41,757 bases of DNA, taken from contig MGZJ01000081.1 of the NCBI GenBank assembly GCA_001802645.1, positions 1 to 41,757 of the forward strand, given 5' to 3'. The stretch is from Geobacteraceae bacterium GWC2_53_11 (GTDB lineage: Bacteria > Desulfobacterota > Desulfuromonadia > Geobacterales > Pseudopelobacteraceae). Numbering within the stretch: the first letter of the stretch is position 1; every line of letters begins with the position of its first letter. Of the stretch, positions 437 to 28,490 are shown piece by piece. The position numbers and the translations under genes were made by a program. Under the pieces are notes generated by a model that saw nothing but the letters and a program-made list of their open reading frames with translations, ran no database searches and was not told the origin of the DNA.

Positions 437-1810
437 TCAGTCCTGATCCGGTACGACCTGCACTCTCTGCACGCAGTTTTTTCCGGAGGTCTTGCCGGAA
501 TACATGGCTTTGTCGGCCATCTCAAGCAGGGTATCTTTAGATGCCGTATCGTCGGGACAACAGGCATAACCGATGCTGCAGGTCAACCGTATGACCTGCC
601 CTTCAGTTCCGGTAAAATGATGGGCTTCAACCTGCCTGCGAATACGTTCGGCGACAAGTTCAGCCGTCACACAGGTGGTTTCCACCAGAATGGCGGTATA
701 TTCATCGCCGCCGTAACGGATAACGATATCAACATCACGAACCGATTTTTTTATCAGAGCTCCGAATTCAGCCAAAACCCGGCTGCCGACAAGGTGACCG
801 TGGACATCGTTTACCTGCTTGAACGAATCAACATCGATAAACAGAACCGCCAGATGCGACGCATACCTCTCTACACGCTTCATTTCCCGTTCGAGGGCAA
901 TGTCGAGATAGCGATGATTATACAGACCGCTCACATCATCTATAAAGAGGAGATCCTTTGCCTGTGAATACGTTTCCGCATTTTCGAAAGCATTGAGTGA
1001 CTGATCAATCAGGAAATGGATATTTTTCCTGAAGGCATCAATATCGGGAAGTGAATGTGTGTTTGAATTGAGCAACACGATCATGCCGGTCGGTGTTGAA
1101 CCACTGATAACCGGAATCAGGAATGCGCTCGAGAATCCTTCGGCAGCAAATTGAGCTGAGAGATCGACATGCTGAATTGAAAATTCCAGTTCTGATGCAT
1201 CCGTAAGTCTGCTGGAAATTACTTCCAGAAGAGACTTGCCCAGATCCGGAGTTATGCCCTTGGCAACTTTGAGCTCAAACGCCGCAGCTCCCATAAAGAA
1301 ACCGAGAGCATGACTGAATCCGGCTTCCCGGGCAATAGCTTCAACAAGAAGATGATACAAATGTTCCCGATCCAGGCAACCGGCAATTGCCTGGCAGGCT
1401 CTGAATAATGCCAGCATGTTCTTCAGTTCCTGGTTCTCATCCAGAAGACGGCGCTGCTGAATACACTGGGCAACCGAATGCTTGAACTCATCCGGGTTGA
1501 CCGGCTTGATGAGATAGTCGCGGGCGCCGTGTTTCAGGGCAAAAATTGCCGATTCCAGATTTGCATTTCCGGTAACCATGATGACATCAACATCAGGATG
1601 GTCTTCGCGAACCCGTGACAGGATTTCAAGGCCGCTGATATCGGGCATCACCAGATCGGTAATCACCAGAGAGTATTGACCGTTGGCAAGCATCTCAAGA
1701 CCATCACTGCCGCATGAGGCTGTCTCAACCTGATATCCTTCAGCCTGCAACAGGTTGGAAAACATTTCCCGGAAAAAACGGTCATCTTCAACTAACAGGA
1801 TCGTATCCAT
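437..1810 (-). CDS. Response regulator with Hypr-type GGDEF domain (candidate cGAMP synthase)
   Basis: A 457-residue REC-linker-GGDEF protein. The receiver (about 1-115) carries the acidic pair D9/D10, phospho-acceptor D52 in TDLVMPD and a conserved lysine in YLIKP. A GAF-like stretch occupies about 130-280. The cyclase domain has the metal motif FIDVD, signature GGDEY at 367-371 and an RDVD inhibitory site five residues before it. The usual guanine-binding pair is N and D (PleD N335/D344, motif ND...GHxxGD). Here N334 is kept but the aspartate is S343 (GHLVGS). That D-to-S change is the known hallmark of Hypr GGDEF enzymes such as Geobacter GacA, which make 3',3'-cGAMP as well as c-di-GMP. 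Product identity is inference from this residue. ATG 1810 has GGAAG seven bases upstream. It sits between comEC and hisS. Confidence 0.9.
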   Translation of the reverse strand: MDTILLVEDDRFFREMFSNLLQAEGYQVETASCGSDGLEMLANGQYSLVITDLVMPDISGLEILSRVREDHPDVDVIMVTGNANLESAIFALKHGARDYLIKPVNPDEFKHSVAQCIQQRRLLDENQELKNMLALFRACQAIAGCLDREHLYHLLVEAIAREAGFSHALGFFMGAAAFELKVAKGITPDLGKSLLEVISSRLTDASELEFSIQHVDLSAQFAAEGFSSAFLIPVISGSTPTGMIVLLNSNTHSLPDIDAFRKNIHFLIDQSLNAFENAETYSQAKDLLFIDDVSGLYNHRYLDIALEREMKRVERYASHLAVLFIDVDSFKQVNDVHGHLVGSRVLAEFGALIKKSVRDVDIVIRYGGDEYTAILVETTCVTAELVAERIRRQVEAHHFTGTEGQVIRLTCSIGYACCPDDTASKDTLLEMADKAMYSGKTSGKNCVQRVQVVPDQD

Positions 1811-4289: not shown

Positions 4290-5447
4290 TTATTTTCTGA
4301 TTTGAAAGGAACCTTGAATTTTCTTCAGAACTGCAGCGGCCTCTTCCGCTCCGATAAGACGATCAACAGGTCCGGTCACGCCAGCCAGACGCAGAAAATC
4401 ATCCGGAGTGGAACTTTTCTTGTTGAACTGCACACTATCAATCCCACCTGCTGGAGGAAGGGTAACAGATAACGTATTATCTCCCGCTTCAAGGCGGTAA
4501 AGACCAATATCATGCTTATACAGGTATGGTTTACCGTCCAGCTTGAAGGGGGTATCATTCACGCTCCCAATCACGGGTTGTCCCATTACATTAAGAACGA
4601 GACCATAATACCCTGTTTCTGCAACAGTAAGAGGAATCTGAAGAGTTTCACCCCGAAAGTCAGCCCGGAGCCACTTTGGGGATGTGAATGGGCCAAGGTA
4701 TGAGGCCGTTGTATACGTAACGGTGGGAGGAAGAGCAATCTTATCGAAATCGGCCCGTGCTTTTGGTGCTGTTTTTTGTTCCACGTCGGGAAGCTGAGAA
4801 TATCGATTCGTCAATGCGACTGCAGTTTCAGCCAACCGCCCTGCAGTCAAGCCATCCTTGAAACGCCAGCCATTAAAAGGCTGAATTGAAGGGTAGTTGG
4901 GTGCTGATAACGAAAATGAATCTATGGCGCCTTCAGGAGGAATCTGTAACGTAATACTGACAACTCCCTCTTTTAACTTCACTTTTGCTATCGTGATCTC
5001 CTGGAATTTTGCCGATTTTGAATCCGCACGGTACTCTTTGTTGCCAACCTTCCACACAAATCCGTTCCCTTTTATAACGGCTTTAAGGTCGTATTCACCC
5101 TCAATAGGCAGCAGAATAGTAAAGGTAGAGGTTGTTGTATCTGAAACACCAAGAATCCACCCTGTTCCGGTGAATGCACCAAACATGGGATTACTGTTCA
5201 TGGTAACCCGGTCCGTCTTTTCGTTGTAGGCCGTTTCAGCCTCATAGCGATAGGTACGTTTTCCGCCAAGGATCAAAAGATAATCGCGATCAACCGGCTC
5301 TTTTGGCAAGCCGCCGTTCCACGAAAACTGTTGCAGGATCAACCGGGCAAAATCTTTTTGCGTAAAGGCAGGAGTCTTGTCTTCCCCCCAGGAAGCCGGT
5401 ACAAAAAACGATAAAGTCGTAATGATTACTAATAGATAACGGAACAT
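4290..5447 (-). CDS. Secreted protein of unknown function with two related beta-rich domains
   Basis: A 385-residue protein with no recognised family. It opens with a signal peptide (about 1-21, hydrophobic core LLVIITTLSFFV, likely cleavage near ASWG). Two sandwich-like domains follow, about 90-180 and 245-342. Both end in the same motif, PPEGAIDS at 170-177 and PPAGGIDS at 331-338, suggesting an internal duplication of a carbohydrate-binding-like or jelly-roll fold. That fold assignment is inference. I chose ATG 5447 rather than an upstream in-frame codon because a strong GGAGGG site precedes it and the signal peptide then starts correctly. It is first in the leftward operon with comEC and shares a 158-bp divergent control region with the histidine kinase gene. 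Confidence 0.8.
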   Translation of the reverse strand: MFRYLLVIITTLSFFVPASWGEDKTPAFTQKDFARLILQQFSWNGGLPKEPVDRDYLLILGGKRTYRYEAETAYNEKTDRVTMNSNPMFGAFTGTGWILGVSDTTTSTFTILLPIEGEYDLKAVIKGNGFVWKVGNKEYRADSKSAKFQEITIAKVKLKEGVVSITLQIPPEGAIDSFSLSAPNYPSIQPFNGWRFKDGLTAGRLAETAVALTNRYSQLPDVEQKTAPKARADFDKIALPPTVTYTTASYLGPFTSPKWLRADFRGETLQIPLTVAETGYYGLVLNVMGQPVIGSVNDTPFKLDGKPYLYKHDIGLYRLEAGDNTLSVTLPPAGGIDSVQFNKKSSTPDDFLRLAGVTGPVDRLIGAEEAAAVLKKIQGSFQIRK

Positions 5448-5527
5448 CAACCCTCCCTGGAATACCTGCAGGCAACAATTGGGGATAAAGAAACACTTCA
5501 TTGCGTATATACCATAGGTCATGCCGC

Positions 5528-5556
5528 TTGAAAACATGACAATTGAGTGATAGAAG
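5528..5556 (+). promoter_or_regulatory. Candidate sigma-70-type promoter for the kinase/HD-GYP operon
   Basis: TTGAAA (5528-5533), a 17-bp spacer, then TAGAAG (5551-5556): five and four matches to the consensus hexamers. It lies about 50 bp upstream of the kinase ATG at 5606, inside the 158-bp divergent region 5448-5605. Picked by eye and not tested. Confidence 0.3.
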
Positions 5557-5605
5557 ATTGATGTTGCTACAGCATATCACTTACCGGAGAAAAGGTGCCA
5601 GTAGG

Positions 5606-7756
5606 ATGAATTCAGACCAAGCCATATCCGATGTTGTCAGCCAGCATGCTGAAATGGAATTGCGCAAGTTTTTCCGTGCCTCCGAGATCGGTTCCAGTCA
5701 AATACTTATGACCGATAGCAACGGGACTATTGAATATGCAAACCCGGCTTTTTGCAGGGTAACCGGTTACTCATCCCATGAAGTTGTCGGAAAAACTCCT
5801 GCCCTTCTCAGATCTGAACGAATGTCTGCTTCATTCTATCAACGCCTGTGGGAATCACTCAAGTCCGGAACTGAGTGGCATGGTGAGTTTTTTAACCGTC
5901 GCAAGAACGGTACGTATTATCTTGAAAAAGCGGTAATTTCAGCAATCAAATCAAATGACGGTTCCGTATCACATTTCATAAAAGTATCCGAAGATATTAC
6001 CGAACAGAAACATTCCGAAGAACATCAGCAACGACGTCTGAAACTGACAGAAGCAATAAACAACGCTAATCTTAGTTTCATGGAACACGGCAATCTGCAC
6101 CAGATGGCTGAGATTATCCTTGAAACATGTATGACCATTACCAGCTCGTCGCGAGCTGTTTTGTATGAAATGCTTCCGAACGGCAACGTCGGAGTTCTGG
6201 CATTGTCAACGACATCACTTGATCCGGTTCCGGGGTTTCAGGAAGTCCAATATGAGCTTCTCCGTAACGGTCAATATGAGGTACCGCTCCATACATCACT
6301 GCTTATGGCTCCGGTCATCGAAGACAGAACGGTTGTTGTCAACGCTCCTGAAGACAATGAATGGTGCGCCTGCTCCTGCCGCATCTGCTCCGCCCCCATT
6401 GTGACCTTTGCCGGATTCCCTCTCAAAATCGGCCCTACGACAATTGGCATGATAGGGCTGGCAAACCGGGAGCAGGGTTACTCGCAAGATGATTTAGTAG
6501 ACCTTGAGACTTTTTCGCACTCCTGTGCTCTCGCCATTTCTGCCGCGCGAGCAGAAACCATCCGCAAATCAACTCTTGACCAGCTTCGCCAGTCACAGAA
6601 AATGGAAGCGATTGGCCAACTTGCAGGCGGGATATCGCACGATTTCAACAATCTTCTTACCGTCATCACCGGCTACAGTACGCTTGCCTATCAGAAAATC
6701 GGCTCCGAGCATCCGGCTGCCAAAGACATAGAACAGGTTATCAACGCGGGTGAACGGGCAACATCTCTGATCCGGCAGCTTCTGGCATTTGGTCGGCGCC
6801 AGATACTTGATCCGCAACCTATTAACGTAAACATTTTTATCGCCAGTATTCAAAAAATCCTGAGTCGGCTGATCGGCGAACACATTTCTCTTACCACCCA
6901 ACTCTCCCACGATATAAGCATGGTGCTTGCTGATCCAAGCCAAATTGAACAGATCATCATGAACCTCGTTATTAACGCCCGTGACGCCATGGAGCGGGGT
7001 GGAACCATCACAATTGAGACAGCCAATCAAACCCTTGATTCTTCGTTTGTACGCAAGAACCGCGGCGCCATGGAAGGAGATTACGTCGTTATTTCCGTTC
7101 GTGACACCGGAATGGGCATGACTGACGAAGTAATTACCCGTATTTTTGAACCGTTTTTTACAACAAAGGCAGAATCGGGAACAGGACTTGGGCTGGCTAC
7201 CGTCTATGGAATTGTAAAACAGAATAACGGTTATATTAAGGTCGTCAGCCAGGTTGGTATCGGAACTGAATTCAAGGTTTATATCCCGCGTCTTTTCAAG
7301 CATACTAAAGACAAAGTTGTTTCCGGTCCCCCCGGAATTGCGACAAAAGCAGAGCGAGGAGAAGGCTTGATTCTGGTCGTAGAAGATGAGCAGACAGTCC
7401 TTGATCTTGCCGCTGTTTCCCTGCGCTCTCAGGGATACGATGTATTAACGGCAAACGGCCCTCTGGAAGCGCTCAAAATTTTTGATCGTGCCGGAGAGAA
7501 AATAGACCTGATACTTACCGATGTCATGATGCCTGACATGTCCGGGACTGAAATGGTTCAGAAAATGAGATTGAAATACCCTGCCGTCAAATTACTGTTT
7601 ATGTCAGGATATTCAGAAGAAAAATTGAACCCCATCGACTTCCAGGGAGAAAAAATCCGGTTCATGACTAAACCATTCAGCCCCGCGGATCTCGCCGCAC
7701 TGGTCCATACTTGTATGACTGATGATTCCACAACTCATGGAGAGCACAAGGAATGA
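5606..7756 (+). CDS. Hybrid sensor histidine kinase (PAS-GAF-HisKA-HATPase-REC)
   Basis: A 716-residue soluble kinase without membrane segments. Domains in order: PAS with PAC (about 20-135), GAF (about 155-325), HisKA with phospho-accepting H345 in GGISHDFNNLL, HATPase with N-box NLVINARDAM, DTGMGM, FEPFFTTK and GTGLGLATVYG, then a receiver (about 590-705) with acceptor D639 in TDVMMPD. The GAF domain carries a cysteine cluster, C254-A-C256-S-C258-R-I-C261, which may sense redox state or bind a metal (inference). ATG 5606 is preferred over upstream TTG codons because AAGGTG lies eight bases before it and the start then falls near the PAS domain. Its stop overlaps the next gene, the HD-GYP regulator, which is the obvious partner. 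Confidence 0.93.
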   Translation: MNSDQAISDVVSQHAEMELRKFFRASEIGSSQILMTDSNGTIEYANPAFCRVTGYSSHEVVGKTPALLRSERMSASFYQRLWESLKSGTEWHGEFFNRRKNGTYYLEKAVISAIKSNDGSVSHFIKVSEDITEQKHSEEHQQRRLKLTEAINNANLSFMEHGNLHQMAEIILETCMTITSSSRAVLYEMLPNGNVGVLALSTTSLDPVPGFQEVQYELLRNGQYEVPLHTSLLMAPVIEDRTVVVNAPEDNEWCACSCRICSAPIVTFAGFPLKIGPTTIGMIGLANREQGYSQDDLVDLETFSHSCALAISAARAETIRKSTLDQLRQSQKMEAIGQLAGGISHDFNNLLTVITGYSTLAYQKIGSEHPAAKDIEQVINAGERATSLIRQLLAFGRRQILDPQPINVNIFIASIQKILSRLIGEHISLTTQLSHDISMVLADPSQIEQIIMNLVINARDAMERGGTITIETANQTLDSSFVRKNRGAMEGDYVVISVRDTGMGMTDEVITRIFEPFFTTKAESGTGLGLATVYGIVKQNNGYIKVVSQVGIGTEFKVYIPRLFKHTKDKVVSGPPGIATKAERGEGLILVVEDEQTVLDLAAVSLRSQGYDVLTANGPLEALKIFDRAGEKIDLILTDVMMPDMSGTEMVQKMRLKYPAVKLLFMSGYSEEKLNPIDFQGEKIRFMTKPFSPADLAALVHTCMTDDSTTHGEHKE

Positions 7757-8799
7757 TGGAACATATCCTGATTGTTGATGATGAAGAGATGATTCGGAAT
7801 TTACTTTCTTCCGCTCTTCTTCAGGAAGATTATATCTGCCACCAGGCTTCCAACGTTGATGAAGCGTTTGTGCTTCTAGGCGAACAGCCAATTGACCTCG
7901 TTATATCCGACATCATGATGCCGGGAAGAAGTGGTGTAGAATTACTTCGTGATCTGAAAAAAGTGGACCCGGATATTGCAGTGTTAATGATCACGGGACT
8001 CTCGGACATGAATACCGCCATGGAGTGCGTTCACCTTGGCGCTGATGACTATATCACGAAACCATTCGGCATAAATCGCGTTGTGCTGACCGTCAAGAAC
8101 CTGATCGAGCGACGCTGCCTTGCAATAGAAAAGAAAAATTATCAGGTCAGCCTTGAATTCAAAGTCATGGAGCAGACGGCTCAAATTAGAAAAACCATGA
8201 ATGAGCTTTCCAGCGCTTACGACAATACCCTCACCGCTTTGGTAAAGGCTCTGGATGCTCGCGAAAAAGAGGTCGGCTCACATTCGGAACGGGTTATGAA
8301 CTTTGCATCGTTTCTTGGCGGGAAATTAGGGATGGCAGGAAAAGAGCTCCAGGAACTGGCAAAAGGGGCGCTTCTGCACGACATCGGCAAAATCGGCATT
8401 TCCGACAACATACTGCTCAAACCTGGTCAACTTGATGATGGCGAGTGGATTGAAATGCGCAAACATCCGCAAGTCGGTTACGCAATCCTGTCAGAAATCG
8501 AATTTTTGAAGATTCCGGCTGAAATCATCCTCACTCACCATGAACGCTATGACGGCACCGGCTACCCCAAACAACTCAAAGGGGAACAAATTCCAATTGG
8601 CGCCCGTATTTTTGCGGTGGTCGATACACTGGATGCCATGACATCTGATCGCCCGTATCGAAGGGCTCTTCCATTTGCAGCAGTCGCCAACGAAATCATT
8701 AAATTTCGCGGCGCGCAATTTGATCCGGCCATTGCCGACCTGTTTCTTTCAATACCTCGAAAGCATTGGGAAGAGTGTGCGGGAAAACAGTTCATATAA
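7753..8799 (+). CDS. HD-GYP response regulator (cyclic dinucleotide phosphodiesterase, RpfG-like)
   Basis: A 348-residue REC-HD-GYP protein. The receiver (about 1-120) has its acceptor in ISDIMMPG and lysine in YITKPFG. A short helical linker leads to an HD-GYP domain (about 160-340) with H209-D210 in LLHDIGKIGI, H262-H263 in LTHHERYDG and the GTGYP loop near 269-273, so the catalytic set looks complete. Such enzymes hydrolyse c-di-GMP, and some cleave 3',3'-cGAMP. Which substrate applies here cannot be told by eye. The ATG overlaps the kinase stop (ATGATGG); an ATG three bases later is equally possible. Overlap implies co-translation with the kinase. The Hypr cyclase lies in the divergent operon. 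Confidence 0.93.
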   Translation: MMEHILIVDDEEMIRNLLSSALLQEDYICHQASNVDEAFVLLGEQPIDLVISDIMMPGRSGVELLRDLKKVDPDIAVLMITGLSDMNTAMECVHLGADDYITKPFGINRVVLTVKNLIERRCLAIEKKNYQVSLEFKVMEQTAQIRKTMNELSSAYDNTLTALVKALDAREKEVGSHSERVMNFASFLGGKLGMAGKELQELAKGALLHDIGKIGISDNILLKPGQLDDGEWIEMRKHPQVGYAILSEIEFLKIPAEIILTHHERYDGTGYPKQLKGEQIPIGARIFAVVDTLDAMTSDRPYRRALPFAAVANEIIKFRGAQFDPAIADLFLSIPRKHWEECAGKQFI

Positions 8800-10233: not shown

Positions 10234-10992
10234 CTAGATCTGATATTCGGAACCGTCGCGCAGCAATTCGACACCGGATATCGACAGTTCTTTTACTTCC
10301 TTATTGATCTGGTCGTAGTATTGCGGTTTGGGATGGGTAATGAGGATACGCTTTGGCAAAATAGCAATTTTCGCGAGCTCATCAACCAGCATGGAAGCTG
10401 TCAAATGCTTTGTCAGCTGGGCAAGCGGCACCATTGAATTGGGAAAGGAAACTTCAACAATCAAAACATCCACTCCGGAGCAATGGGTCCAGATTTCTTC
10501 GGTTGGTCCCGTATCCCCGGTGTAGACGAGCGTTTTTCCACATGATTTCACCACATAGCCGACCGTCGGCACGGTGTGATTCACCGGAATTGCTGTAATG
10601 GAGTACTCTTTGACCTTGTATTCGTGATACGGAATAATAGTTGAAAAGGTAATAACCGGATTCTTTTCATCCGGTATTTTGGTAAAATCGGGCCAGATAA
10701 TATTGTTAAACAGATGGTTCTGCATGGCAACTATAACTTCATCGGTACTCAGAACAGTGACGGTATGGCGTTGATTTTTAATAATTATATTATCAGCAAG
10801 GGCGGGAATACTTCGAATATGATCCAAATGAGAGTGGGTAATAAAAATAGTATGGATTTTCCATTGTTCTTCTTCCGTAAGAACCGAACCGATTGTTCCG
10901 GCATCAAGGAGCAACTGGTCATCCAGTAAAAATGCAGGCGGCCTGAAGTCTGGAAGTTCAGCACCCGCACTTCCCAACACTCTCAGTTTCAT
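10234..10992 (-). CDS. Metallo-beta-lactamase-fold hydrolase, class II cyclic-nucleotide phosphodiesterase-like
   Basis: A 252-residue MBL-fold enzyme. The opening LRVLGSAGAELPDFRP, the motif HSHLDH at 53-58, TGDTGP in the middle and LITHPKP near the C-terminus supply the usual two-metal site. The overall pattern resembles the PDEase_II (CpdP/PDE1) branch that cleaves cAMP or cGMP. A general phosphodiesterase or RNase Z-like role is the alternative. ATG 10992 is chosen because GGGAGG precedes it, rather than the in-frame codon 54 bases upstream. It is divergent from the GspE-like ATPase, with 299 bp between the two starts. A class III cyclase elsewhere in the window (25922-28012) could supply the substrate, which is inference. 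Confidence 0.8.
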   Translation of the reverse strand: MKLRVLGSAGAELPDFRPPAFLLDDQLLLDAGTIGSVLTEEEQWKIHTIFITHSHLDHIRSIPALADNIIIKNQRHTVTVLSTDEVIVAMQNHLFNNIIWPDFTKIPDEKNPVITFSTIIPYHEYKVKEYSITAIPVNHTVPTVGYVVKSCGKTLVYTGDTGPTEEIWTHCSGVDVLIVEVSFPNSMVPLAQLTKHLTASMLVDELAKIAILPKRILITHPKPQYYDQINKEVKELSISGVELLRDGSEYQI

Positions 10993-11291
10993 TTTTCCTC
11001 CCGGCTTAATGGGCTGCGTCACAATGTGGCCGCTATTCATTACCACTTCTATCGGCCAAAGTCATCCCATTTTGATAAAACCAAACTAACATTATCAGTG
11101 ATTCTCGTTACCACAATTGTTCACAAGCAACTTCCCGAAGTATATATGAATATATCTTGAGATATACTTGAAATCTGCTACTCTTACTAAGAGAATATCC
11201 CTTCCTGCTCGACAAATGCATATGTTAAAGAAACAAGTCGCTGCAAAAATGCATAGAACGTACCTTCTCGCTAGCCAAACAGGATGACGCC
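10993..11291. other. Divergent intergenic region, AT-rich near the centre
   Basis: 299 bp between the MBL hydrolase and the GspE-like ATPase. No coding sequence, tRNA or riboswitch pattern was recognised. The notable parts are the candidate promoter and overlapping palindrome at 11151-11184, and the longer inverted arms AAGTATA (11138-11144) and TATACTT (11163-11169). Confidence 0.6.
11151..11184 (+). promoter_or_regulatory. Candidate promoter with operator-like palindrome upstream of the GspE-like gene
   Basis: TTGAGA (11157-11162), 16-bp spacer, TACTCT (11179-11184), with an extended minus-10 TG at 11176-11177. The minus-35 sits inside the perfect palindrome TATATCT-TG-AGATATA (11151-11166), a layout typical of repressor binding. 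The transcript would begin about 100 bp before the ATG at 11292. Confidence 0.35.
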
Positions 11292-13592
11292 ATGCCTCAG
11301 GAAACAGACGCACTACGACAGCAGCTTGAATACCGCAAGCGGTTAATGGACAAAATCAATGAAATCCACTCCGCAGACAATCTTAATACGATTCTTATTA
11401 ATATCAAAGATAGTATTGCCGGACTTTTCAGCGCTGAACGCATAACCATCTATCTGGCAGACGCCAAACGTAACCTCCTTATTTCCAAAGTCAAAAGCGG
11501 CACTGAAGTTCAACAGATCGTCGTACCGATCAGTGATGCCAGCCTTTCCGGCTACTGCGCGATTACGGGCACTATCATTAATATCAAGAATGCCTATGAC
11601 CAGCACGAACTGAAGATGATCGGCAGCAATCTCAAGTTTGACGACAGCTGGGATAAAAAAACCGGATATGTCACCAAACAGGTACTCTGCGTACCGATGA
11701 AATTCCAGAAGACCCTGATCGGCGTCATCCAGATTATCAATAAAAACGGCGACATTCCCTATGATGACACCGATATCAGTTATGCTGTTGAGTTATCCAC
11801 CTCTCTCTCAATTGCAATTCACAATATCTACCGTCTCTCCGTCACCACAAAAGTTATCCGTCACAAGGCGCGCTACAACTACCTGCTTGATAAGAATCTT
11901 GTCGATGACAAACTTCTGGAAAAAGCATCAACACATCCGGATGTTGCCAAGTCAGGGATGGACTCTGTCTTGATGCACGAATTCGGAATCAGCAAGGAGG
12001 ATATGGCAAAAAACCTTTCCTTCTATTTCGGCACTGAATTTATTGGTTACGAGCCCACTTCACCGCCACTTGAAGATGAGTTGCTCAGACGCGTCAGACC
12101 TGATCGTTTAAACAAAGAGTGGTGGGTTCCGTTCAAAATTGAAAACGGGATCCTTCATATTATTATTGATGACCCAACTGATCTCGGGCGACAGGACATG
12201 CTGCGGTTTGTGTATCCCGAATACAAACGCATCAGCTTTATTGGCGCCTTTAGGGAAGATATCCTGAGTTATATCAACCTGTTTTACTATCAAGGAGCTT
12301 CAGGAACATCCAGCAGCAGTATCGACGATATTCTTAACAAGCTTGATTCCAGCGATGATCCTGAAATTGAATCTGAATCTCAGAGGGTGTCAGAGCAGGA
12401 CAGTGTGATAGTCCAGCTGGTCAACAAGATTATTATTGACGCGGTTAACAACAAGGTCTCGGACATTCACATTGAACCATTTCCTGGCAAGGAAGACGTA
12501 CAGGTCAGAATGAGGGTTGACGGCCGCTGTAAGGTCTATCAGAAAATTCCTTACAAATACAAATATGCCATACCGTCGCGTATCAAGATCATGTGTAACC
12601 TGGATATATCCGAACGTCGCAAACCGCAGGACGGAAAGATCGACTTCAAGAAATTCGGACCACTCAATGTGGAATTGCGCGTTGCAACCGTACCGACAGC
12701 CGGTCAACTGGAAGACGTCGTAATGCGTGTGCTTGCCTCCGGCGAACCAATTCCCTACGACAAGTTAGGTCTGACCGAACGCAACTCCCGCGTACTGGAT
12801 GCCTGCGTTCATCAACCATATGGTCTTGTACTGGTTGTCGGACCAACCGGTTCAGGAAAGACGACTACGCTTCACTCGGCAATTTCAGTTATCAATACCG
12901 TTGATACCAAAATATGGACCGCAGAAGACCCGGTTGAAATAACCCAGCGCGGCTTGCGCCAGGTTCAGGTACACCCTAAAATAGGCTTTACCTTTGCTGC
13001 AGCCCTCCGCTCCTTTCTCCGCGCCGACCCGGATGTCATCATGGTTGGCGAGATGCGAGACCAGGAAACCGCAGAAATCGGTGTTGAATGTTCACTGACG
13101 GGACATCTGGTTTTCTCAACGTTGCACACCAACTCGGCACCGGAAACCATTACCCGCCTGCTTGATATGGAACTCGATCCGTTCAGTTTCTCCGACGCGA
13201 TCCTCTGCATTTTGGCGCAGCGCCTGGCACGACGTCTCTGCAGTTGTCGCGAGGAATACGTTCCATCGCAAAAAGAAATTGAAGAAATAATTATTGAATA
13301 TGGAGAAGAAGATTTCGCCAAGACAGGATTAAAGTCTGCTGATATAAAACTTTTCAAAGCTGTAGGATGCCAGAAATGCGGGGATTCAGGATACAAAGGA
13401 CGGCTGGGACTTCATGAATTGCTTGAAGGGACTGATGCTATCAAGGCGCTGGTAAAGCGGAAATCAGAAATTGAATTCATCCGAAAGCAAGCCATTGCAG
13501 ATGGTATGACGACACTGAAACAGGACGGAATACTCAAATGTTTTCAGGGTCTGACTGACCTGAAGGAAGTGAGAAGAGTCTGCATTAAGTAG
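11292..13592 (+). CDS. GspE/PilB-family secretion or pilus ATPase with N-terminal GAF domain
   Basis: A 766-residue cytoplasmic ATPase of the type II secretion/type IV pilus class. A GAF domain (about 15-180) is followed by an MshEN/T2SSE_N-like domain (about 195-330), a linker and the motor. The motor has Walker A GPTGSGKT at 517-524, Walker B region DPDVIMVGEMRD, the His box STLHTNSAPETI, and a zinc-binding tetracysteine element (CSC near the end of the motor and CQKC in VGCQKCGDSGYKG). All catalytic elements are intact. It stands alone, without pilin, PilC/GspF or secretin genes nearby, so its machine must be encoded elsewhere. MshEN-type domains can bind c-di-GMP, making it a possible effector (inference). 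AGGA lies about eight bases before ATG 11292. Confidence 0.92.
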   Translation: MPQETDALRQQLEYRKRLMDKINEIHSADNLNTILINIKDSIAGLFSAERITIYLADAKRNLLISKVKSGTEVQQIVVPISDASLSGYCAITGTIINIKNAYDQHELKMIGSNLKFDDSWDKKTGYVTKQVLCVPMKFQKTLIGVIQIINKNGDIPYDDTDISYAVELSTSLSIAIHNIYRLSVTTKVIRHKARYNYLLDKNLVDDKLLEKASTHPDVAKSGMDSVLMHEFGISKEDMAKNLSFYFGTEFIGYEPTSPPLEDELLRRVRPDRLNKEWWVPFKIENGILHIIIDDPTDLGRQDMLRFVYPEYKRISFIGAFREDILSYINLFYYQGASGTSSSSIDDILNKLDSSDDPEIESESQRVSEQDSVIVQLVNKIIIDAVNNKVSDIHIEPFPGKEDVQVRMRVDGRCKVYQKIPYKYKYAIPSRIKIMCNLDISERRKPQDGKIDFKKFGPLNVELRVATVPTAGQLEDVVMRVLASGEPIPYDKLGLTERNSRVLDACVHQPYGLVLVVGPTGSGKTTTLHSAISVINTVDTKIWTAEDPVEITQRGLRQVQVHPKIGFTFAAALRSFLRADPDVIMVGEMRDQETAEIGVECSLTGHLVFSTLHTNSAPETITRLLDMELDPFSFSDAILCILAQRLARRLCSCREEYVPSQKEIEEIIIEYGEEDFAKTGLKSADIKLFKAVGCQKCGDSGYKGRLGLHELLEGTDAIKALVKRKSEIEFIRKQAIADGMTTLKQDGILKCFQGLTDLKEVRRVCIK

Positions 13593-18153: not shown

Positions 18154-21100
18154 TTACCAACTTACCAGACCAACCAACTTACGAAGAGCAACTACAACAT
18201 CTGATACATCAACGACACCATCAGGGCTTGGTTTTCCTCCTACCAGCGGTGCGATGTCAATCCGTTTGAGTTGGGCTGCGCTCGGAGTGCTTCTCATAAG
18301 TGATGCCTTGAGAATTTCATTTACATCCGCAATAGTGAAGATTCCATCAGCGTTGTAATCTCCGTCAGGAAGCGCCGTAGTGAATGAGCGGTTAAGCGCA
18401 GTTACTTTGTTCCCTGCAAGGTCTTCAACATTGGCAACAGACAGGTAAATTACAGCCCCGGAAGGGAGAAGCGCAGCCGGAGTGAATGTTGCGATTTTCG
18501 TACCCGGACTATAGGTTATCGAGCCGGCGATTGGTGCCGTTGCAGTTGAAACCTGGATACTGGTGCTGCTGATCGTGCTTTCCTTTAACGCTTCGCTGAA
18601 CGTAACGGTTACCGTACTGTCATACGCCACACCGGTTGCTCCGGCAGACGGTGATGTTGCCGTGACCGCCGGCTTTACCGTATCGATGGTGTACGTTTCG
18701 GTTCTAACGGCCTCACTGTTGCCAGCCGAATCTTTTGCGAAGAATTTAAGTGTTGTTGTCGCAGAAATCGTGATAGCTGCGGTGTATTTTGTCGATGATG
18801 CCGTTGGTGTCGCACCGTTGACCGTGTAATAGATTGATGCACCGGCTTCGCTGGCGCTCAATGTGACGCTTTGCGCAGAATTATACAGCCCTCCGACAGG
18901 AGAAACCGTTGTTACAGGCAGGCTTGTATCAATAACATAAACAGCAGTCTTTATCGTTTCACTGTTCCCTGCGGTATCCCTCGCAAAGAATTTAAGGGTT
19001 GTATTGGCAGAGATCAGAATCGGCGTGGAGTAAGCTGATGATGACGTTGTCGGATCAGAGCCGTTCGTGGTGTAATAGATCGTCGCAGTTTCATTGGCAG
19101 CCAAAGTAACGTCAAATGAAGCACCATACGTACCGGCAGCGCGGGATGAAGTAGTTACCGGAGCGATCTTGTCAATGGTGTAGGCCTGAGTCTTGACCGT
19201 CTCCACATTCCCGGCAGTATCTTTCGCGAAGAACTTGAGGGTAGTATCGGCAGAGATCGAAATTGGAGCGCTGTAAACGGTTGAAGATACCGACGGAGTA
19301 GCGCCATTTGTGGTGTAATAGATCGTTGCAGTTTCATTGGCGTTCAGAGTAACGGTCTGATTAGCGTTGTACAGCCCACCGGCAGGAGAAGCAGTCGTTA
19401 CCGGCGCCGTAGCATCAGTAGTCTCTGTCGTAAAGGTCAGCGTCGTAACCGGTAAAGCATTACCAACCATATCGGTAACGGTGCTGAACTGAATACTGTA
19501 TGTTGTTCCGGGTGCCAGAGGTGCACTCGGGACAAACGTGTGTGTTTTGCTATCTGCTGTTGACGAACCAAAACCCTGAACATACTGATTTGTTGTATTG
19601 TTCTTCAAAGCTGCGGTCAAATCCGGCATACCCTTGATTGCTTCGCTGAAGGTTATGGATATTGCAGCGTTTATCGATACACCGGTTGCATTGTTAGCCG
19701 GAACAGTTGAAACAAGTGCCGGAGCTGTTGTGTCGCCAGCAGTACCTGACGTCGTTGGGGTAAAGTTGCTGCCTGTTGTGGCCTTGTTGCCATTCTGATC
19801 TCTTACACTGACAGACCACTTATACGCGGTGCCGACCAGAAGTGTCGAACTTGAAGATGAACCACTGCCGTACGTTATAGACCTGATAGAGCTGGGAATT
19901 GACCACTGTTCCCACATTTTATTATTGTTAGTGGCATTATCAACCCACAATGAATACTGATAATTTCCGGCAGGAGCAACCGTAGGCGCTGACCAACTGA
20001 AGGTTGGCACAGTGGACACCGGACTACTGATTGTCGGGTTAACCGGATAATTGTTTATGACGCCGGTAATTGCTGCGGTGACTCCAGTTTCTGTAGTTCC
20101 ATCAGAATATCTGATGGTAAATGAATAGGTATCTCCAACAACCGGGGCAACGTTATTTCCTCCCCAGAATTGGATATCCTTACCGTTATCATTTCCAATG
20201 GTAAGATCCATTGGTACATAAAATTGCGTTGAAGAGGAGGGAGCAGTATCAAGCGTAACAGAGACAGGCCGTTTTAATTGTCCTGTGACAGAGCCATTCA
20301 CATTAAACCATTCGTCGGTTCCGCTTTTAAAATGATCTGTCGTCACGCTTACAGTAGAATTTTTGCTTACCAATGCAATGGTACCCATTGCTGTTCCGGC
20401 CCCGCCAGAAAGATTGATGATCGGAGCCTGATCATTACTTGTATTTGAAATATCGCCATTGCCGATTATTCCATCTTTATTCAAATCCAGAATTACATAC
20501 ACCTCATACCCGCCATCCGGAATCCCGGAAACACTGAAAGCCTGGCTGGCTGTAGCATTGGCAATGGATGCAAAGTGCACCGAGCCGATTCCCTTATCGC
20601 TTCCCGTACCAGCAACAGCTATGAGCAGTGGGGTGCCGACAGGGATGGTTCCGTTATACGTTACCGTTCCTGAAACCGTATTCAAACCTGTTCTGGCTCC
20701 GACTGTGATCGGGCCAACTACAGCAGAGGCGGTACCAGTCAGGGTTCCTGTACGAGGTACAACCATGAAATAATAATTTGTGCCATTGGTAAGAGAACTA
20801 ATGGTAATAGGCGAATCCAGACCGGCAGGAATTGACAGTTTTTTGCCAGCAGATGAAGTACTGACCTGAGCGGTCGTATCCCAGTAGATATCGTAATAAT
20901 CGGCATCAATTACGTTGTTCACCGTATTTGGCTGCCAAGCCATGAGAACCGCCGAATCACCCGGTTTAACCTCAACATTCTGCGGTGCGCCTGGTGCAAC
21001 TTGGGCAGGCGCGTTTAAGGTAATATCTCTTGCTGTTGCAGTGCTGCCTGATGAGCTGCCAACCGGTGATGAGGCGGTACGAAAGCCGGTGTCCTGAGAA

Positions 21101-24100
21101 TCCAGATAGGCAGTAATGGTATTGCTGACATTACCGGAAGGAACGCCGCGAATCGTATAGTTTGCGGAGGTCATACCGGTCGTCCATTTAATTGCCGTAC
21201 CAAGTGTACCGTTATTGGTCTGAACACTTACATGCACATAACCGGTTTTTGTGCCGCTATAGGATATTGTGCCGGTGAAGGTAACCGGCCCGGTAGGAGT
21301 CACGCTGGAAGGAGTTGTTACCGTAATGGGGCTTGATTGTGCCGAACAGTTATTTGCCGCATCACATGCAGCTACCGAATAGCTGTAGGTTGTCATTGCA
21401 GCAACAGTTGTATCCGACCAGAAGGTGTTTGTAGCACCTGATGGCTGCGCGACGAGATTACCATCACGGAAAACTTTGTAAGAGGTAACACCCACGTTGT
21501 CCGTAGAACTGCTCCAACTGACATCAACCTGTGAAGCACTCACAGCAATGGTCGTTACATTTGCCGGAACTGTAGGAGGAATGGTGTCAGTAGTACCGCC
21601 AATCAAAGAGAACGGATAAACATTCGCATCGTTATCATTGACATCAACATCGGATGCATACCCATCACCATCTGCATCAGTGAGAGTCGAATAATTATAG
21701 CCAGTCCCATGATACCCAACCATCATAGAGCGGCTACGATTGCTATAAACCATAGTATTGCTACCATCATTACACTGAACTCTCAGCATAAGCTGCGACG
21801 GGGCAAGCGTAGCTGACGTAAAGGCTACGGAAGAAGCCTGAATCAGTGAAGACGTCACAAGAAGATCTGGAGTGCCTGTTCCATAAATATCTGTATTGGT
21901 AAACACAAGTAAATTGCACCAGGTAGTAATATCACTGATGACAGGAGCCCATGAGAAACGCATGTCACCATTTGGATCCGTAGTTACCTGAATGGTTTTC
22001 ATATCTACAACAGGTAGTGCATGTGGGGATGTCAGATAATCATAGCGGAAGGAATTATTACCGTTACTGTCAAAAGCGGTGAACTTGTACAGACCGGACT
22101 GTAGTGAGCCTGATTCATACAAACGATATTGGCCATTACCAACATTTGATGCTTGAGTCATCATATTCCTGGTAAAGCCGTTCGGTCCCTCGACACGCAA
22201 TTCAGTAATAGTCGCACTCGTGCTTGAAGCAGCAAACCATATTTCAGTTGATGCAATGCCATTGGACGGCACTGCATTTGCTATGCCGTAGTTCCCGATT
22301 GTCGGCAGAACCGCTGAGTACGGCGGCGTATCTGACAGTACGCCCACAGACCATAACCCGTTACGCCTATTACGTTGGGTGTTGTAATTGCTGCTGTCAT
22401 ACACCTCCACGCGCCATTTCACATTTGTAGAATTACCAAAAACTGAGCCAAGCGTCGAGCTGGGAACATCAATAATTGTTTGATTAAGCCGTCCAGTAGT
22501 ATAGTACGTCCCGGTAACCATATCCTTAATCTGAATACGATAATAGAGAGCACCATTGTAATCTACATTAGCCCAGCTGAAGCGAATATTGCCGTTTGAC
22601 TGTTCAATTGCTTGGTAAGTACTGTTGTCTGGTGCCGGATATACAACCGGAGTTGTCAGGGTAACATAGCTGAAGTGATCCAGTCCGTTGGCAACAAAAC
22701 GTATTTTATAGTTTCCTGCAGCAGGTGCAGGGTTGAAAAAATGTAAAAAATCGACACCATTTGATTGTTTATCAGCAACCAGGTCATATGTGTAGTAAAG
22801 CGAACCATCCGGGGCGTAAATTTCAGCTAATGTTACAAGACTTGCATCAGATGCAGAGCAAGCGGTGCCGGTCGAGTTGCATGCTGCAAAGCCAAAGTTA
22901 GCGCCCTGGGTACCATCAGCCTCAACTTGGTTAAAAGCACCTGCATAGGAATATAGAAGCATTCCTGCATTATCCGACACCTGAGGTGTGAACGGTACAT
23001 AGGACGAACTGGAACGGTTGGTCATCATATCAAATGTTGCCGATTCTGAAGCCTCAACCCTCACTTGATACGTTGTTCCAACCACCAGGCTTGCCGCAGG
23101 AACATCATCAAACCCCTGCATGGTTCTGTTGCTGAAATACACCGGAGCACCCGTTCCATCATTAATCCTTACTCTATAATTATATGTCTTTGTGTCATTC
23201 AGTGAAGCCCAACTGAGGCGATACGAGCCATCAGATTTTCGCTGGAATTGAATTTTTGTACTGTCTACAACCGGCACAGTTGCTACGCCTCCGTGAGTAT
23301 CCACGCGCTTGGACACATGCCCCTGACCATCATCAAGCGTGAATGTATATACACCTGGAGTCAGCGCAGTCGGCAACTGATAGTTAAGATCAATCTGGCC
23401 ATTGATAAACGGCTTAATGTCTGCATTTGTAAATGAATAGTTGAAGCCGTTCGGCCCGGTAACTGTGGCCGTTACATTTGTTGTCGGAGAAAGCGCCGTA
23501 GCATTTTTGACTAACATGTCAAGAGAATCTGCCTCGACTCCACTAGACAAAGTACCATGATACACACCGGCTGAAGAAATAGCCGGAAAAGCAGTGTCAA
23601 CAGCAATATTAAGAGTACCCTGTGCTGTCGCAGAAACGGAATCCGTGACTTGTACAGTAAAAGCATAATTGCCCGTTGCCGTATTAGAAACAGTTCCAGA
23701 GAGGACGCCAGTACTGCTTAACGTAAGCCCCCCCGGGATTGAGCCTGTCGCAATTGAGAATGTATATGGTGGTATGCCGCCAGTTGCATTAATCTGCTGT
23801 GAATAGGCATAACCTGCTACACCATTCGGTAACGACGTTGTGCTGATTGCAAGCGGAGACGTTGCCGTTGCCGTTGCTGTTACAGGAGTTGAAGATGCAG
23901 AGCAATTGCCAGCCGCATCACATGCCACCACGGTGTAGTTGTAGGGAACGCCGGTGGTTACCGTAGTGTCGGACAGGGAAGTGTTGGTTGCACCAAAAAG
24001 CTGGTCGAAAATCGAACCATTACGGTAAATGGTGTAATAGTTAACTCCGACATTATCGGTGGCAGCATTCCACGTAACATTTATCTGATTGGAATTCACT

Positions 24101-25779
24101 CCTGCGGCGGTAACGCCGCTGGGAACCGATGGTGCCTGACTGTCTCCGGTTGTGCCATAGGTAAAGCTGGCTTGCTGCGTTGCGGAGTTGCCTGACGCAT
24201 CAAAAACCGAAACTTTCCAATTATAAGCAGTATTGTCAGTCAGCGCTGTCTGGCTTGCACTACCGTCAAAGTTAAAGTTTACGGAAGTTGCAGCACTGGA
24301 CATTTCCTTTGGATCCCAGAATATGCCGCCTCCATTTTGCTGTTCGAGAGACACCTGATAACCGTAGAATCCGGCTGGGGGGGAGGCCGGTGCCGACCAT
24401 GTCAAAGCAGGAGTGGCATTGAATGCCGTTGCGCCAACCGGTGAAACAGGGGTGGCAAAACTGTTCAACACACCGGTAACCGAGCCGGTGATAGTTCCGA
24501 TACTCAGATCGGAATAGGTAACATTAAACGTATAGGTATCATTGATCTGTGGAACCACGGAGGCGATCCCGGCCCAACTGTTGAACCTGCCGTAATCATC
24601 CAGGGCAATGTCAAGCGGACCGGTTACATTTGATCCAGTAATCAAAGTAACTTTAACCGGACGTTTGTACTTCCCTTCAATTTCAAAATTGAGTCCGTAA
24701 CTTTCATTGAAATCGTCTTTCCAATGATTAGTGCGAACGGAAGCTGCCGATTCCAGAGCGGAACTCAGGGTAATATCAGCATTTGTAGCTGGGCCGTTAG
24801 CAACAGTCACTACTGGTGCCACAGCGTCACTAACATCCAGATCTCCTGCATCCATCAAGCTGTTGCCGTTCAAATCAAAGAATGCATATACCCGATAGGT
24901 ACCATTTGGAACACTGCTAACCGTATAACTTTGGGGAGAAACCGGCGATACGACCTTGGTCATATAAATCTGGGAAGGAGGACCATTCTGGTTGTTGTCA
25001 ACCACCGCAAGCAACAAAGGCTTACCCAGCGTACTGCCGGTAAATGTCACCGTTCCGGAGACAGAGTAGCCGCCGAGAGCCGACCCGATAAACACGGAAT
25101 TTGCATGAGTTGCCGGAAGACTTTCATTGGCACCGATTTTTGCGGTGACGGCAAAATAGAGGGTGGCTCCATTTGCTATGGGCGTTCCGCTTGAAACGGT
25201 CGTCAAATCCGTCAGGATCAGTCCGCGCATATCGCCGGTTGCAGGAATGTTTATCAGACTGCCACCTTGGGTGGCATATGTACCGACGACATCGCTTGAG
25301 GTACTCCAGAACAAGCCATATTTGTCGGCCAACTCGCCTTGGCCGTTGTTAATGCTGTTCCACATGACCAACGCGCTATTATCTGACGGCAACACAATAA
25401 GCCCGTTTGGCGCAGGAACGGTTGAAACCGTGGGCGTGGTCAACGCTACATTGACTCCGCCTGTATTTGCAGTCACGCTGATGGAGCTGGAAACACCAGA
25501 AGGGTCACTGGCATGACGGCTGCCAGTATCCAAGACATCCTCGAACGCAGTCACGACATAATTGCCCGCTGGGACACCCTGTATCGTGAAGATCCCCGGA
25601 GCACTTGCGATGCTGGTGCCAAAATTGCCATTCTGAGTTCGAATACTCAGGTAGACCGTTTTGGCGTGCGTAGATGTCACTGTACCGCTGATATCAAACG
25701 CCAGCGCCGCTGTCGAAAAGACCGACAGTAGCAAAACCAACGACAACAGGTACTTCCATAATCCGGCATTCTTTTTCAT
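18154..25779 (-). CDS. Giant multi-domain secreted surface protein (2541 residues)
   Basis: Signal peptide 1-27. Two copies of a long module, about 28-545 and 1494-2012, share the order TIQGVPAGNY / TIRGVPSGN, PLLLAV / PLLIAV and a closing PAGFYGYQ / PAGNYQYS block. After the first copy come an FN3 domain (about 547-640), a putative-Ig (He_PIG) domain (640-727), three related beta modules (730-1360), a calcium-binding DADGDGY motif (about 1364) and a second FN3 (1397-1490). After the second copy come a Big_5 domain (2014-2119), three 81-residue chitobiase C-terminal-type repeats (2122-2365), another Big_5 (2366-2467) and a dockerin-like tail (2470-2541). No LPXTG or barrel is seen. The role is probably adhesion or matrix; the gene continues into the lipoprotein gene 33 bp downstream. 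Confidence 0.9.
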   Translation of the reverse strand: MKKNAGLWKYLLSLVLLLSVFSTAALAFDISGTVTSTHAKTVYLSIRTQNGNFGTSIASAPGIFTIQGVPAGNYVVTAFEDVLDTGSRHASDPSGVSSSISVTANTGGVNVALTTPTVSTVPAPNGLIVLPSDNSALVMWNSINNGQGELADKYGLFWSTSSDVVGTYATQGGSLINIPATGDMRGLILTDLTTVSSGTPIANGATLYFAVTAKIGANESLPATHANSVFIGSALGGYSVSGTVTFTGSTLGKPLLLAVVDNNQNGPPSQIYMTKVVSPVSPQSYTVSSVPNGTYRVYAFFDLNGNSLMDAGDLDVSDAVAPVVTVANGPATNADITLSSALESAASVRTNHWKDDFNESYGLNFEIEGKYKRPVKVTLITGSNVTGPLDIALDDYGRFNSWAGIASVVPQINDTYTFNVTYSDLSIGTITGSVTGVLNSFATPVSPVGATAFNATPALTWSAPASPPAGFYGYQVSLEQQNGGGIFWDPKEMSSAATSVNFNFDGSASQTALTDNTAYNWKVSVFDASGNSATQQASFTYGTTGDSQAPSVPSGVTAAGVNSNQINVTWNAATDNVGVNYYTIYRNGSIFDQLFGATNTSLSDTTVTTGVPYNYTVVACDAAGNCSASSTPVTATATATSPLAISTTSLPNGVAGYAYSQQINATGGIPPYTFSIATGSIPGGLTLSSTGVLSGTVSNTATGNYAFTVQVTDSVSATAQGTLNIAVDTAFPAISSAGVYHGTLSSGVEADSLDMLVKNATALSPTTNVTATVTGPNGFNYSFTNADIKPFINGQIDLNYQLPTALTPGVYTFTLDDGQGHVSKRVDTHGGVATVPVVDSTKIQFQRKSDGSYRLSWASLNDTKTYNYRVRINDGTGAPVYFSNRTMQGFDDVPAASLVVGTTYQVRVEASESATFDMMTNRSSSSYVPFTPQVSDNAGMLLYSYAGAFNQVEADGTQGANFGFAACNSTGTACSASDASLVTLAEIYAPDGSLYYTYDLVADKQSNGVDFLHFFNPAPAAGNYKIRFVANGLDHFSYVTLTTPVVYPAPDNSTYQAIEQSNGNIRFSWANVDYNGALYYRIQIKDMVTGTYYTTGRLNQTIIDVPSSTLGSVFGNSTNVKWRVEVYDSSNYNTQRNRRNGLWSVGVLSDTPPYSAVLPTIGNYGIANAVPSNGIASTEIWFAASSTSATITELRVEGPNGFTRNMMTQASNVGNGQYRLYESGSLQSGLYKFTAFDSNGNNSFRYDYLTSPHALPVVDMKTIQVTTDPNGDMRFSWAPVISDITTWCNLLVFTNTDIYGTGTPDLLVTSSLIQASSVAFTSATLAPSQLMLRVQCNDGSNTMVYSNRSRSMMVGYHGTGYNYSTLTDADGDGYASDVDVNDNDANVYPFSLIGGTTDTIPPTVPANVTTIAVSASQVDVSWSSSTDNVGVTSYKVFRDGNLVAQPSGATNTFWSDTTVAAMTTYSYSVAACDAANNCSAQSSPITVTTPSSVTPTGPVTFTGTISYSGTKTGYVHVSVQTNNGTLGTAIKWTTGMTSANYTIRGVPSGNVSNTITAYLDSQDTGFRTASSPVGSSSGSTATARDITLNAPAQVAPGAPQNVEVKPGDSAVLMAWQPNTVNNVIDADYYDIYWDTTAQVSTSSAGKKLSIPAGLDSPITISSLTNGTNYYFMVVPRTGTLTGTASAVVGPITVGARTGLNTVSGTVTYNGTIPVGTPLLIAVAGTGSDKGIGSVHFASIANATASQAFSVSGIPDGGYEVYVILDLNKDGIIGNGDISNTSNDQAPIINLSGGAGTAMGTIALVSKNSTVSVTTDHFKSGTDEWFNVNGSVTGQLKRPVSVTLDTAPSSSTQFYVPMDLTIGNDNGKDIQFWGGNNVAPVVGDTYSFTIRYSDGTTETGVTAAITGVINNYPVNPTISSPVSTVPTFSWSAPTVAPAGNYQYSLWVDNATNNNKMWEQWSIPSSIRSITYGSGSSSSSTLLVGTAYKWSVSVRDQNGNKATTGSNFTPTTSGTAGDTTAPALVSTVPANNATGVSINAAISITFSEAIKGMPDLTAALKNNTTNQYVQGFGSSTADSKTHTFVPSAPLAPGTTYSIQFSTVTDMVGNALPVTTLTFTTETTDATAPVTTASPAGGLYNANQTVTLNANETATIYYTTNGATPSVSSTVYSAPISISADTTLKFFAKDTAGNVETVKTQAYTIDKIAPVTTSSRAAGTYGASFDVTLAANETATIYYTTNGSDPTTSSSAYSTPILISANTTLKFFARDTAGNSETIKTAVYVIDTSLPVTTVSPVGGLYNSAQSVTLSASEAGASIYYTVNGATPTASSTKYTAAITISATTTLKFFAKDSAGNSEAVRTETYTIDTVKPAVTATSPSAGATGVAYDSTVTVTFSEALKESTISSTSIQVSTATAPIAGSITYSPGTKIATFTPAALLPSGAVIYLSVANVEDLAGNKVTALNRSFTTALPDGDYNADGIFTIADVNEILKASLMRSTPSAAQLKRIDIAPLVGGKPSPDGVVDVSDVVVALRKLVGLVSW
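18685..19413 (-). repeat. Three tandem ~81-codon chitobiase_C-type repeats inside the giant gene
   Basis: Units at about 19171-19413, 18931-19170 and 18685-18930. Each begins with (A/L)PVTT and contains IYYT(T/V)NG, a T-rich strand and LKFFA(K/R)D(T/S)AGN, ending YxID. Protein identity between units is high by eye, so this is a recent duplication and a likely site of copy-number change. Confidence 0.85.
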
Positions 25780-28012: not shown

Positions 28013-28046
28013 AATAGCACCACAACATGGGGTATTTTCAGAACGT

Positions 28047-28076
28047 AAAAAGGCTGAGCTACTGCCCAGCCTTTTT
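28047..28076 (-). terminator. Intrinsic terminator overlapping the VOC gene's last codons
   Basis: Arms 28047-28059 and 28064-28076 form a 13-bp stem with one G-U pair around the loop AGTA (minus-strand sense); the 3' arm supplies the U-run. The 5' arm encodes the last residues of the VOC protein (KAGQ) and the stop codon at 28059-28061 enters the loop, so coding and termination share bases. Confidence 0.8.
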
Positions 28077-28490
28077 TTGCGGCGGTAATGCTTCGTCCAG
28101 GACAATCAGATAACCATCGGGATCAAAGCACCACATCTCCTTGACGCCATACGGCTTGATATCCAGCGGATACAGGACCTCCAGCCCTTCCTCCATGATA
28201 GCGTCACGAATATCTTCTATTTCAGTAACTTCAAAATGAAGGGTAATACCGATACCGCGAGGAAACATGCTGAAACGAGGTTCCAGTATTGGATGGGCCT
28301 TGATGACATCCGTCTCTTCTACAAAAATTATGGTCATACCCTCCATTTCAATAACCAGATGGTCGGGAGCACCTTTTGAGGTAAAAGAGCGTCGCACCGG
28401 CAGTTCCAGAATACCTGCATAGAAGGCTTCCGTGACAACAAGCTGGGCAACGGCAAGCTGAATTGAATGAGGAGTGCTGTGTGCTTTCAC
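28059..28490 (-). CDS. VOC-superfamily (glyoxalase/bleomycin-resistance-like) protein
   Basis: A 143-residue single-domain protein with two beta-alpha-beta-beta-beta units: SIQLAVAQLVVTEAFYAGILEL opens the first and GIGITLHFEVTEIEDI the second, ending CFDPDGYLIVLDEAL. Likely metal ligands are H and E in LHFEV and VLDE; the usual first ligand is replaced by glutamine. Members include glyoxalase I, dioxygenases and drug-binding proteins; the substrate here is unknown. It overlaps ccdA by four bases (ATGA), so it belongs to the redox operon. Confidence 0.82.
   Translation of the reverse strand: MKAHSTPHSIQLAVAQLVVTEAFYAGILELPVRRSFTSKGAPDHLVIEMEGMTIIFVEETDVIKAHPILEPRFSMFPRGIGITLHFEVTEIEDIRDAIMEEGLEVLYPLDIKPYGVKEMWCFDPDGYLIVLDEALPPQKKAGQ

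Follow-up and report, generated by a model that had tools for sequence, protein, structure and literature searches.

A GacA orthologue with histidine at its specificity site in Geobacteraceae bacterium GWC2_53_11, predicted to make mainly 3',3'-cGAMP

GacA, a response regulator of Geobacter (GSU1658 in G. sulfurreducens, Gmet_1914 in G. metallireducens), is the closest described counterpart of a gene at positions 437 to 1,810, on the minus strand, of a 41,757-nucleotide stretch of DNA from Geobacteraceae bacterium GWC2_53_11 (contig MGZJ01000081.1, positions 1 to 41,757 of the forward strand, hereafter called the window). Like the product of this gene, GacA combines a receiver and a GGDEF domain with Ser at the base-recognition position and an inhibitory site (I-site), and both genomes contain GEMM riboswitches of the cyclic GMP-AMP (cGAMP) type. 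In G. metallireducens GacA (PDB 5VS9), as described in PMC6456294, Ser348 touches the Watson-Crick face of the base and Asn339 its sugar face, the metal is bound by Asp374, Glu375 serves as base across the dimer, and Tyr304 occupies the site held by Arg in most diguanylate cyclases. The same paper reports that Ser at the base position pairs with Asp, not Glu, in the signature motif (the GGDEF rule), and that Tyr, Ser, Ala or Gln at the cross-dimer site gives mainly cGAMP and Arg more cyclic di-GMP (c-di-GMP); a residue other than Arg is usual there but not strict, two tested Hypr enzymes having Arg. A second Hypr GGDEF protein, Bd0367 of Bdellovibrio bacteriovorus, likewise carries Ser (S214) in place of the Asp, along with a conserved I-site, but differs in its cross-dimer Met, its distant lineage and its role in gliding and prey exit (PMC9140294). 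PleD of Caulobacter is also a receiver-GGDEF response regulator with an I-site; it differs in having Asp at 344, a cross-dimer Arg and GGEEF, this Asp being the one described as conserved in strict c-di-GMP producers (PMC9140294).

The window protein is very probably a GacA orthologue that would make mainly 3',3'-cGAMP as part of a riboswitch pathway resembling the Geobacter one, the product being predicted from sequence. The gene adds to the known GacA pathway, and no novel type of system is involved. What is new and most useful is that the specificity residue varies naturally between His and Tyr, that an HD-GYP protein is linked to the gene, and that the genome has several candidate synthases. 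An automatic pipeline would probably annotate the gene as a diguanylate cyclase; among the 25 of 117 NCBIfam matches listed, there is no cGAMP-synthase model and no equivalog model reaches its cut-off. The gene and the residues of interest are as follows.

437..1810, minus: gacA orthologue, open reading frame with ATG start, 457 residues (receiver, middle region and Hypr-type GGDEF)
1472..1801, minus: receiver domain, residues 4-113 (Pfam Response_reg, E 6.7e-30)
1655-1657, minus: codon of the phospho-acceptor D52, near-invariant in alignment A1 (39 rows)
476..943, minus: GGDEF domain, residues 290-445 (Pfam GGDEF, E 2.8e-40)
782..784, minus: codon of S343, the Hypr base-recognition position (PleD D344, G. 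metallireducens GacA S348; from alignments)
809..811, minus: codon of N334 (G. metallireducens GacA N339; from alignments)
914..916, minus: codon of H299, the cross-dimer position (G. metallireducens GacA Y304, Arg in most diguanylate cyclases; placed by alignments, role as given in PMC6456294)
698..712, minus: GGDEY signature, residues 367-371 (sequence and alignment)
728..739, minus: I-site RDVD, residues 358-361 (sequence; R358 and D361 invariant in A1)

The middle region has no Pfam match, and the fold-search rows that span it have a large root-mean-square deviation. The GacA GGDEF structure is the closest solved relative by both sequence and predicted fold (61% identity); the PDB entry, 6d9m, is a T4-lysozyme/Geobacter GGDEF fusion that we take to be GacA from its title and residue spacing. 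In phmmer alignments Ser343, within NDVHGHLVGS, pairs with the Ser of 6d9m and with the Asp of GHDIGD in PleD, and a profile alignment including both of these GGDEF references places it identically. The Asp found at the D344 position in canonical diguanylate cyclases is thus replaced by Ser343, as the first-pass annotation had proposed, and the alignment that might have displaced this Ser set it opposite PleD D344 and GacA S348. Its readings of Asn334 as kept and of GGDEY and the RDVD I-site as intact were borne out as well. Counted from the Ser, the residues equivalent to those of G. metallireducens GacA are S343, N334, D369, E370 and H299. GGDEY, which differs from the GGDEF of GacA in its last residue, has Asp rather than Glu in its third position.

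In the 39 rows of A1, the catalytic residues D326, D328 and E370 are invariant and D369 is present in at least 90%. It is hardly credible, in view of this conservation, that the GGDEF domain is idle and serves as a c-di-GMP receptor through its I-site, even though that site is preserved and purified GacA carries c-di-GMP (PMC6456294). Decay looks like the GGDEF domain at 32386-33342 (GQDSF, no Asn), unlike the window protein.

A contig scan kept 79 loci of 432 stretches encoding a relative, and the 46 closest of these (L041-L086) were taken as orthologues, making 47 with the window protein. The orthology of the window protein with GacA rests on the Geobacter GGDEF fusion as top PDB match in both sequence and fold searches, on a 53-row tree and on the conserved neighbours hisS and comEC, GacA being represented by the GGDEF domain in the PDB. 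All 46 loci of other genomes have Ser at position 343 together with GGDE[Y/F], so that the Ser is not due to chance or to a sequencing error. Position 299 is His in 33 of the 47 orthologues, including the window protein, Tyr in 14 and Arg in none. The tree requires five changes for His, so that His and Tyr have alternated; several of its nodes are weakly supported, and a number of outgroup branches are very long. We also counted motif pairing over the 83 GGDEF domains of the 79 loci, three reference rows being excluded. Every Ser domain (71/71) has GGDE[F/Y] and none has a cross-dimer Arg, whereas the Asp domains have GGEEF in 11/12 and cross-dimer Arg in 8/12. The Ser/GGDEF pairing agrees with the rule published in PMC6456294.

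By analogy with GacA, a homodimer would bind one purine nucleoside triphosphate per GGDEF half-site, with Ser343 accepting adenine or guanine and Asn334 contacting the base. The Asp of GGDEY would position the metal at the distance needed by Ser, and the Glu of one subunit would activate the 3'-OH across the dimer. With His299 presumably standing in for Tyr, where others have the guanine-favouring cross-dimer Arg, 3',3'-cGAMP would predominate in the cell, assuming that the gene is expressed; c-di-GMP would be a side product and an I-site inhibitor, and cGAMP would exert its effect via the genome's five GEMM riboswitches of the cGAMP type. The first-pass annotation took the Asp-to-Ser change as the mark of the Hypr cGAMP class, condensing ATP and GTP to cGAMP. 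GacA orthology supports this assignment, but the change alone is insufficient, given that four of five engineered Asp-to-Ser enzymes were dead and one was still a pure diguanylate cyclase (PMC6456294); the case for cGAMP is made by orthology, by the Asp in the GGDEY motif and by the absence of a cross-dimer Arg, taken together. The proposed reaction stands as to the expected main cellular product. Its exclusivity does not, because GacA in vitro also makes c-di-GMP and cyclic di-AMP (PMC6456294), and cGAMP is expected as the main, not the exclusive, product in the cell.

The residue in which the window protein departs from GacA, His299 for Tyr304, bears on whether the protein might be mainly a diguanylate cyclase, in which Ser343 loosens base selectivity and His299 leaves c-di-GMP as the chief cellular product. 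His is outside the residues tested, two Asp-type GGDEF domains of the same genome share it at the cross-dimer position, and the Asp-to-Ser variant of GSU3350, which has a GGDEF motif, stayed a pure diguanylate cyclase (PMC6456294). Against this, the protein is a GacA orthologue, Arg is absent from all 47 orthologues and the genome has cGAMP-type riboswitches, and we consider a mainly c-di-GMP-forming enzyme highly unlikely. The main text of PMC6456294 uses the word histidine three times, always of kinases; titles and abstract openings among the literature matches listed mention no cross-dimer histidine variant of a Hypr GGDEF domain. The orthologues, 33 with His and 14 with Tyr, offer a natural series on the choice of the GGDEF dimer between c-di-GMP and cGAMP.

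The genome contains ten GEMM-I riboswitches, all labelled by Rfam as c-di-GMP-I families. Using pocket positions from PMC6274999, placed on the sequence with an aptamer as a guide, we assigned five to the cGAMP type (L036-L040), with A at the site of G in the c-di-GMP class, four to the c-di-GMP type (L031-L034) and one to neither (L035). Of the five cGAMP-type switches, four are clustered within 6 kb of a single contig, two of them in tandem before a 622-residue fn3 protein. Examined for genes of metal respiration, the neighbours of the cGAMP-type switches encode DUF4382, fn3 and OmpA-like proteins, as well as a protein with no Pfam match whose downstream neighbour is a GGDDY cyclase. The switch of neither type (L035 1501-1576, contig 15) precedes a 403-residue protein that by eye looks cyclic-nucleotide-binding and transglutaminase-like.

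Among 76 genomes of the family, GacA was found in 66, this one included (E 1e-60), and the cGAMP-type riboswitch pattern in 59, a reversed control pattern giving no match. The pattern is present in 56/66 genomes with GacA and in 3/10 without (Fisher p 7e-4, relatedness ignored).

Several points weigh against a cGAMP-forming GacA orthologue acting through riboswitches. Ten of the 66 GacA genomes have no match to the pattern, three of the ten genomes without GacA at the cut-off still have it, and the co-occurrence test ignores relatedness and includes some incomplete genomes. Several cGAMP-riboswitch targets of G. sulfurreducens are cytochromes (PMC6456294); in the 1.5 kb that follow each of the ten riboswitches here, no CXXCH, the cytochrome motif, was seen. 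His299 falls outside the reported Hypr cross-dimer set of Tyr, Ser, Ala, Gln and Arg (PMC6456294) and Met in Bd0367 (PMC9140294), and the comparison with GacA covers the GGDEF domain in the PDB and published descriptions.

There are 40 GGDEF matches in the genome, of which 39 entered the alignment; the fortieth is P0002, on contig 59. Ser or Thr occupies the Hypr position in four of the 39: the window protein, L026, L121 and, in L123, a domain that has decayed. The other candidate synthases are as follows.

L026 862-1998: Ser, GGDEF, cross-dimer Ser; N-terminal match to a NifA model (NCBIfam)
L121 1438-2535: Thr, GGDEF, cross-dimer Met; membrane-bound by eye
L128 4539-5909 (contig 59): P0002, with HAMP, Hypr Ser and GGDDY, GSU1937-like by published description

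The last of these bears on whether most cGAMP comes from other synthases, chiefly P0002, with the window protein still a GacA orthologue; this would be compatible with the reading we favour. GSU1937 is reported to be a second active cGAMP synthase (PMC8835794), and P0002, set beside its description only, fits it in HAMP, Ser and GGDDY. With Fe(III) citrate, a cGAMP reporter fell by 70% without GSU1937 and by 10% without gacA (PMC8835794), and L026 and L121 also combine Ser or Thr with GGDEF. In the same study, however, G. sulfurreducens on fumarate lost about 80% of the reporter signal without GacA and 25% without GSU1937. With one gene between them, P0002 lies downstream of a cGAMP-type riboswitch (L128 3419-3494), a link seen only in its own genome among the 30 loci scanned. 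Homologues of P0002 occur in 51/76 family genomes (E 1e-40), one of them in G064, a genome with the riboswitch pattern and no GacA at the cut-off; of 30 of the 51 loci scanned, the present one included, 29 have Ser with GGDD[F/Y] and one has no motif. A strict pattern, applied to loci whose flanks end some 1.5 kb past the match, showed an upstream riboswitch at this locus alone (1/30). On balance, P0002 or another synthase as the chief source appears unlikely, and the same 1/30 count led us to dismiss the idea that P0002 generally forms a feedback loop. Another response regulator with a GGDEF domain encoded in the window (32386-33342, minus) looks catalytically dead from its sequence, having GQDSF and no base-contact Asn.

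The neighbours of the window gene are listed here.

1-387, minus: hisS, first 129 codons, running off the contig start
1887..4280, minus: comEC (Competence, DUF4131 and metallo-beta-lactamase; Pfam)
4290..5537, minus: 415-residue protein without Pfam match, upstream, in the comEC-gacA-hisS strand run
5543..7756, plus: divergent hybrid histidine kinase (PAS-GAF-HisKA-HATPase-receiver; Pfam)
7753..8799, plus: response regulator with HD-GYP (Pfam; HHERYDGTGYP present), candidate cyclic-dinucleotide hydrolase

The hisS and comEC genes had been suggested as an aid in tracing orthologues, and they serve this purpose: hisS lies directly downstream of gacA (<400 bp) in 46/46 orthologous loci, and comEC directly upstream (<400 bp) in 40 of the 44 loci that extend 300 bp or more on that side. 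The four exceptions are L070, L085, L086 and L079, in the last of which the gacA match has a late start. Both genes also flank related loci labelled Geobacter (L077 and L083, for example). Further upstream, 34 loci have a full flank, that is, a complete stretch of about 6 kb. Homologues of the 415-residue protein and of the hybrid kinase each occur in 9/34, and an HD-GYP response-regulator homologue (identity of 65% or more across 300 residues or more) in 20/34. In L047, L057, L058 and L073 no HD-GYP homologue was seen and the kinase homologue extends to the end of the locus, and the HD-GYP gene may be situated past that point. Neither homologue is present in ten of the 34 full flanks. The HD-GYP homologue was not found in the complete flanks of L050, L051, L063, L065, L070 and L085, nor in those of L077, L078, L080 and L083, which weighs against reading much into its proximity; its presence close upstream sets the window locus apart from that of GacA.

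The HD-GYP neighbour is a candidate cGAMP hydrolase. It shares its kind of catalytic domain with V-cGAP3 and with PmxA of Myxococcus, an HD-GYP protein reported to act best on cGAMP (PMC8844925). Its best solved relatives are 4mcw, another HD-GYP enzyme, and, second, V-cGAP3 (5z7c); as their scores are near-equal, sequence does not decide the substrate, and assignment to cGAMP on this basis was rejected. With 19 HD_5 matches in the genome, proximity to gacA is a lead. The hybrid kinase is a possible input to the window protein. It is conceivable, if doubtful, that the GacA locus forms a compact cGAMP control unit, with a His/Tyr-alternating synthase, its own HD-GYP hydrolase and the hybrid kinase, and that a second, riboswitch-controlled GGDDY synthase adds positive feedback.

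A plasmid origin was rejected, tblastn at E 1e-30 returning one distant plasmid record (Ilyobacter, 27.5% identity). Elsewhere in the window, a metallo-beta-lactamase-fold protein matching class II cyclic AMP phosphodiesterases (10234-11046, minus) adjoins a GAF-MshEN-T2SSE ATPase (11292-13592, plus). A protein with CHASE2 and an adenylate/guanylate cyclase catalytic domain (25922-28105, minus) lies beside a 2541-residue protein with Ig-like and fn3 domains (18154-25779).
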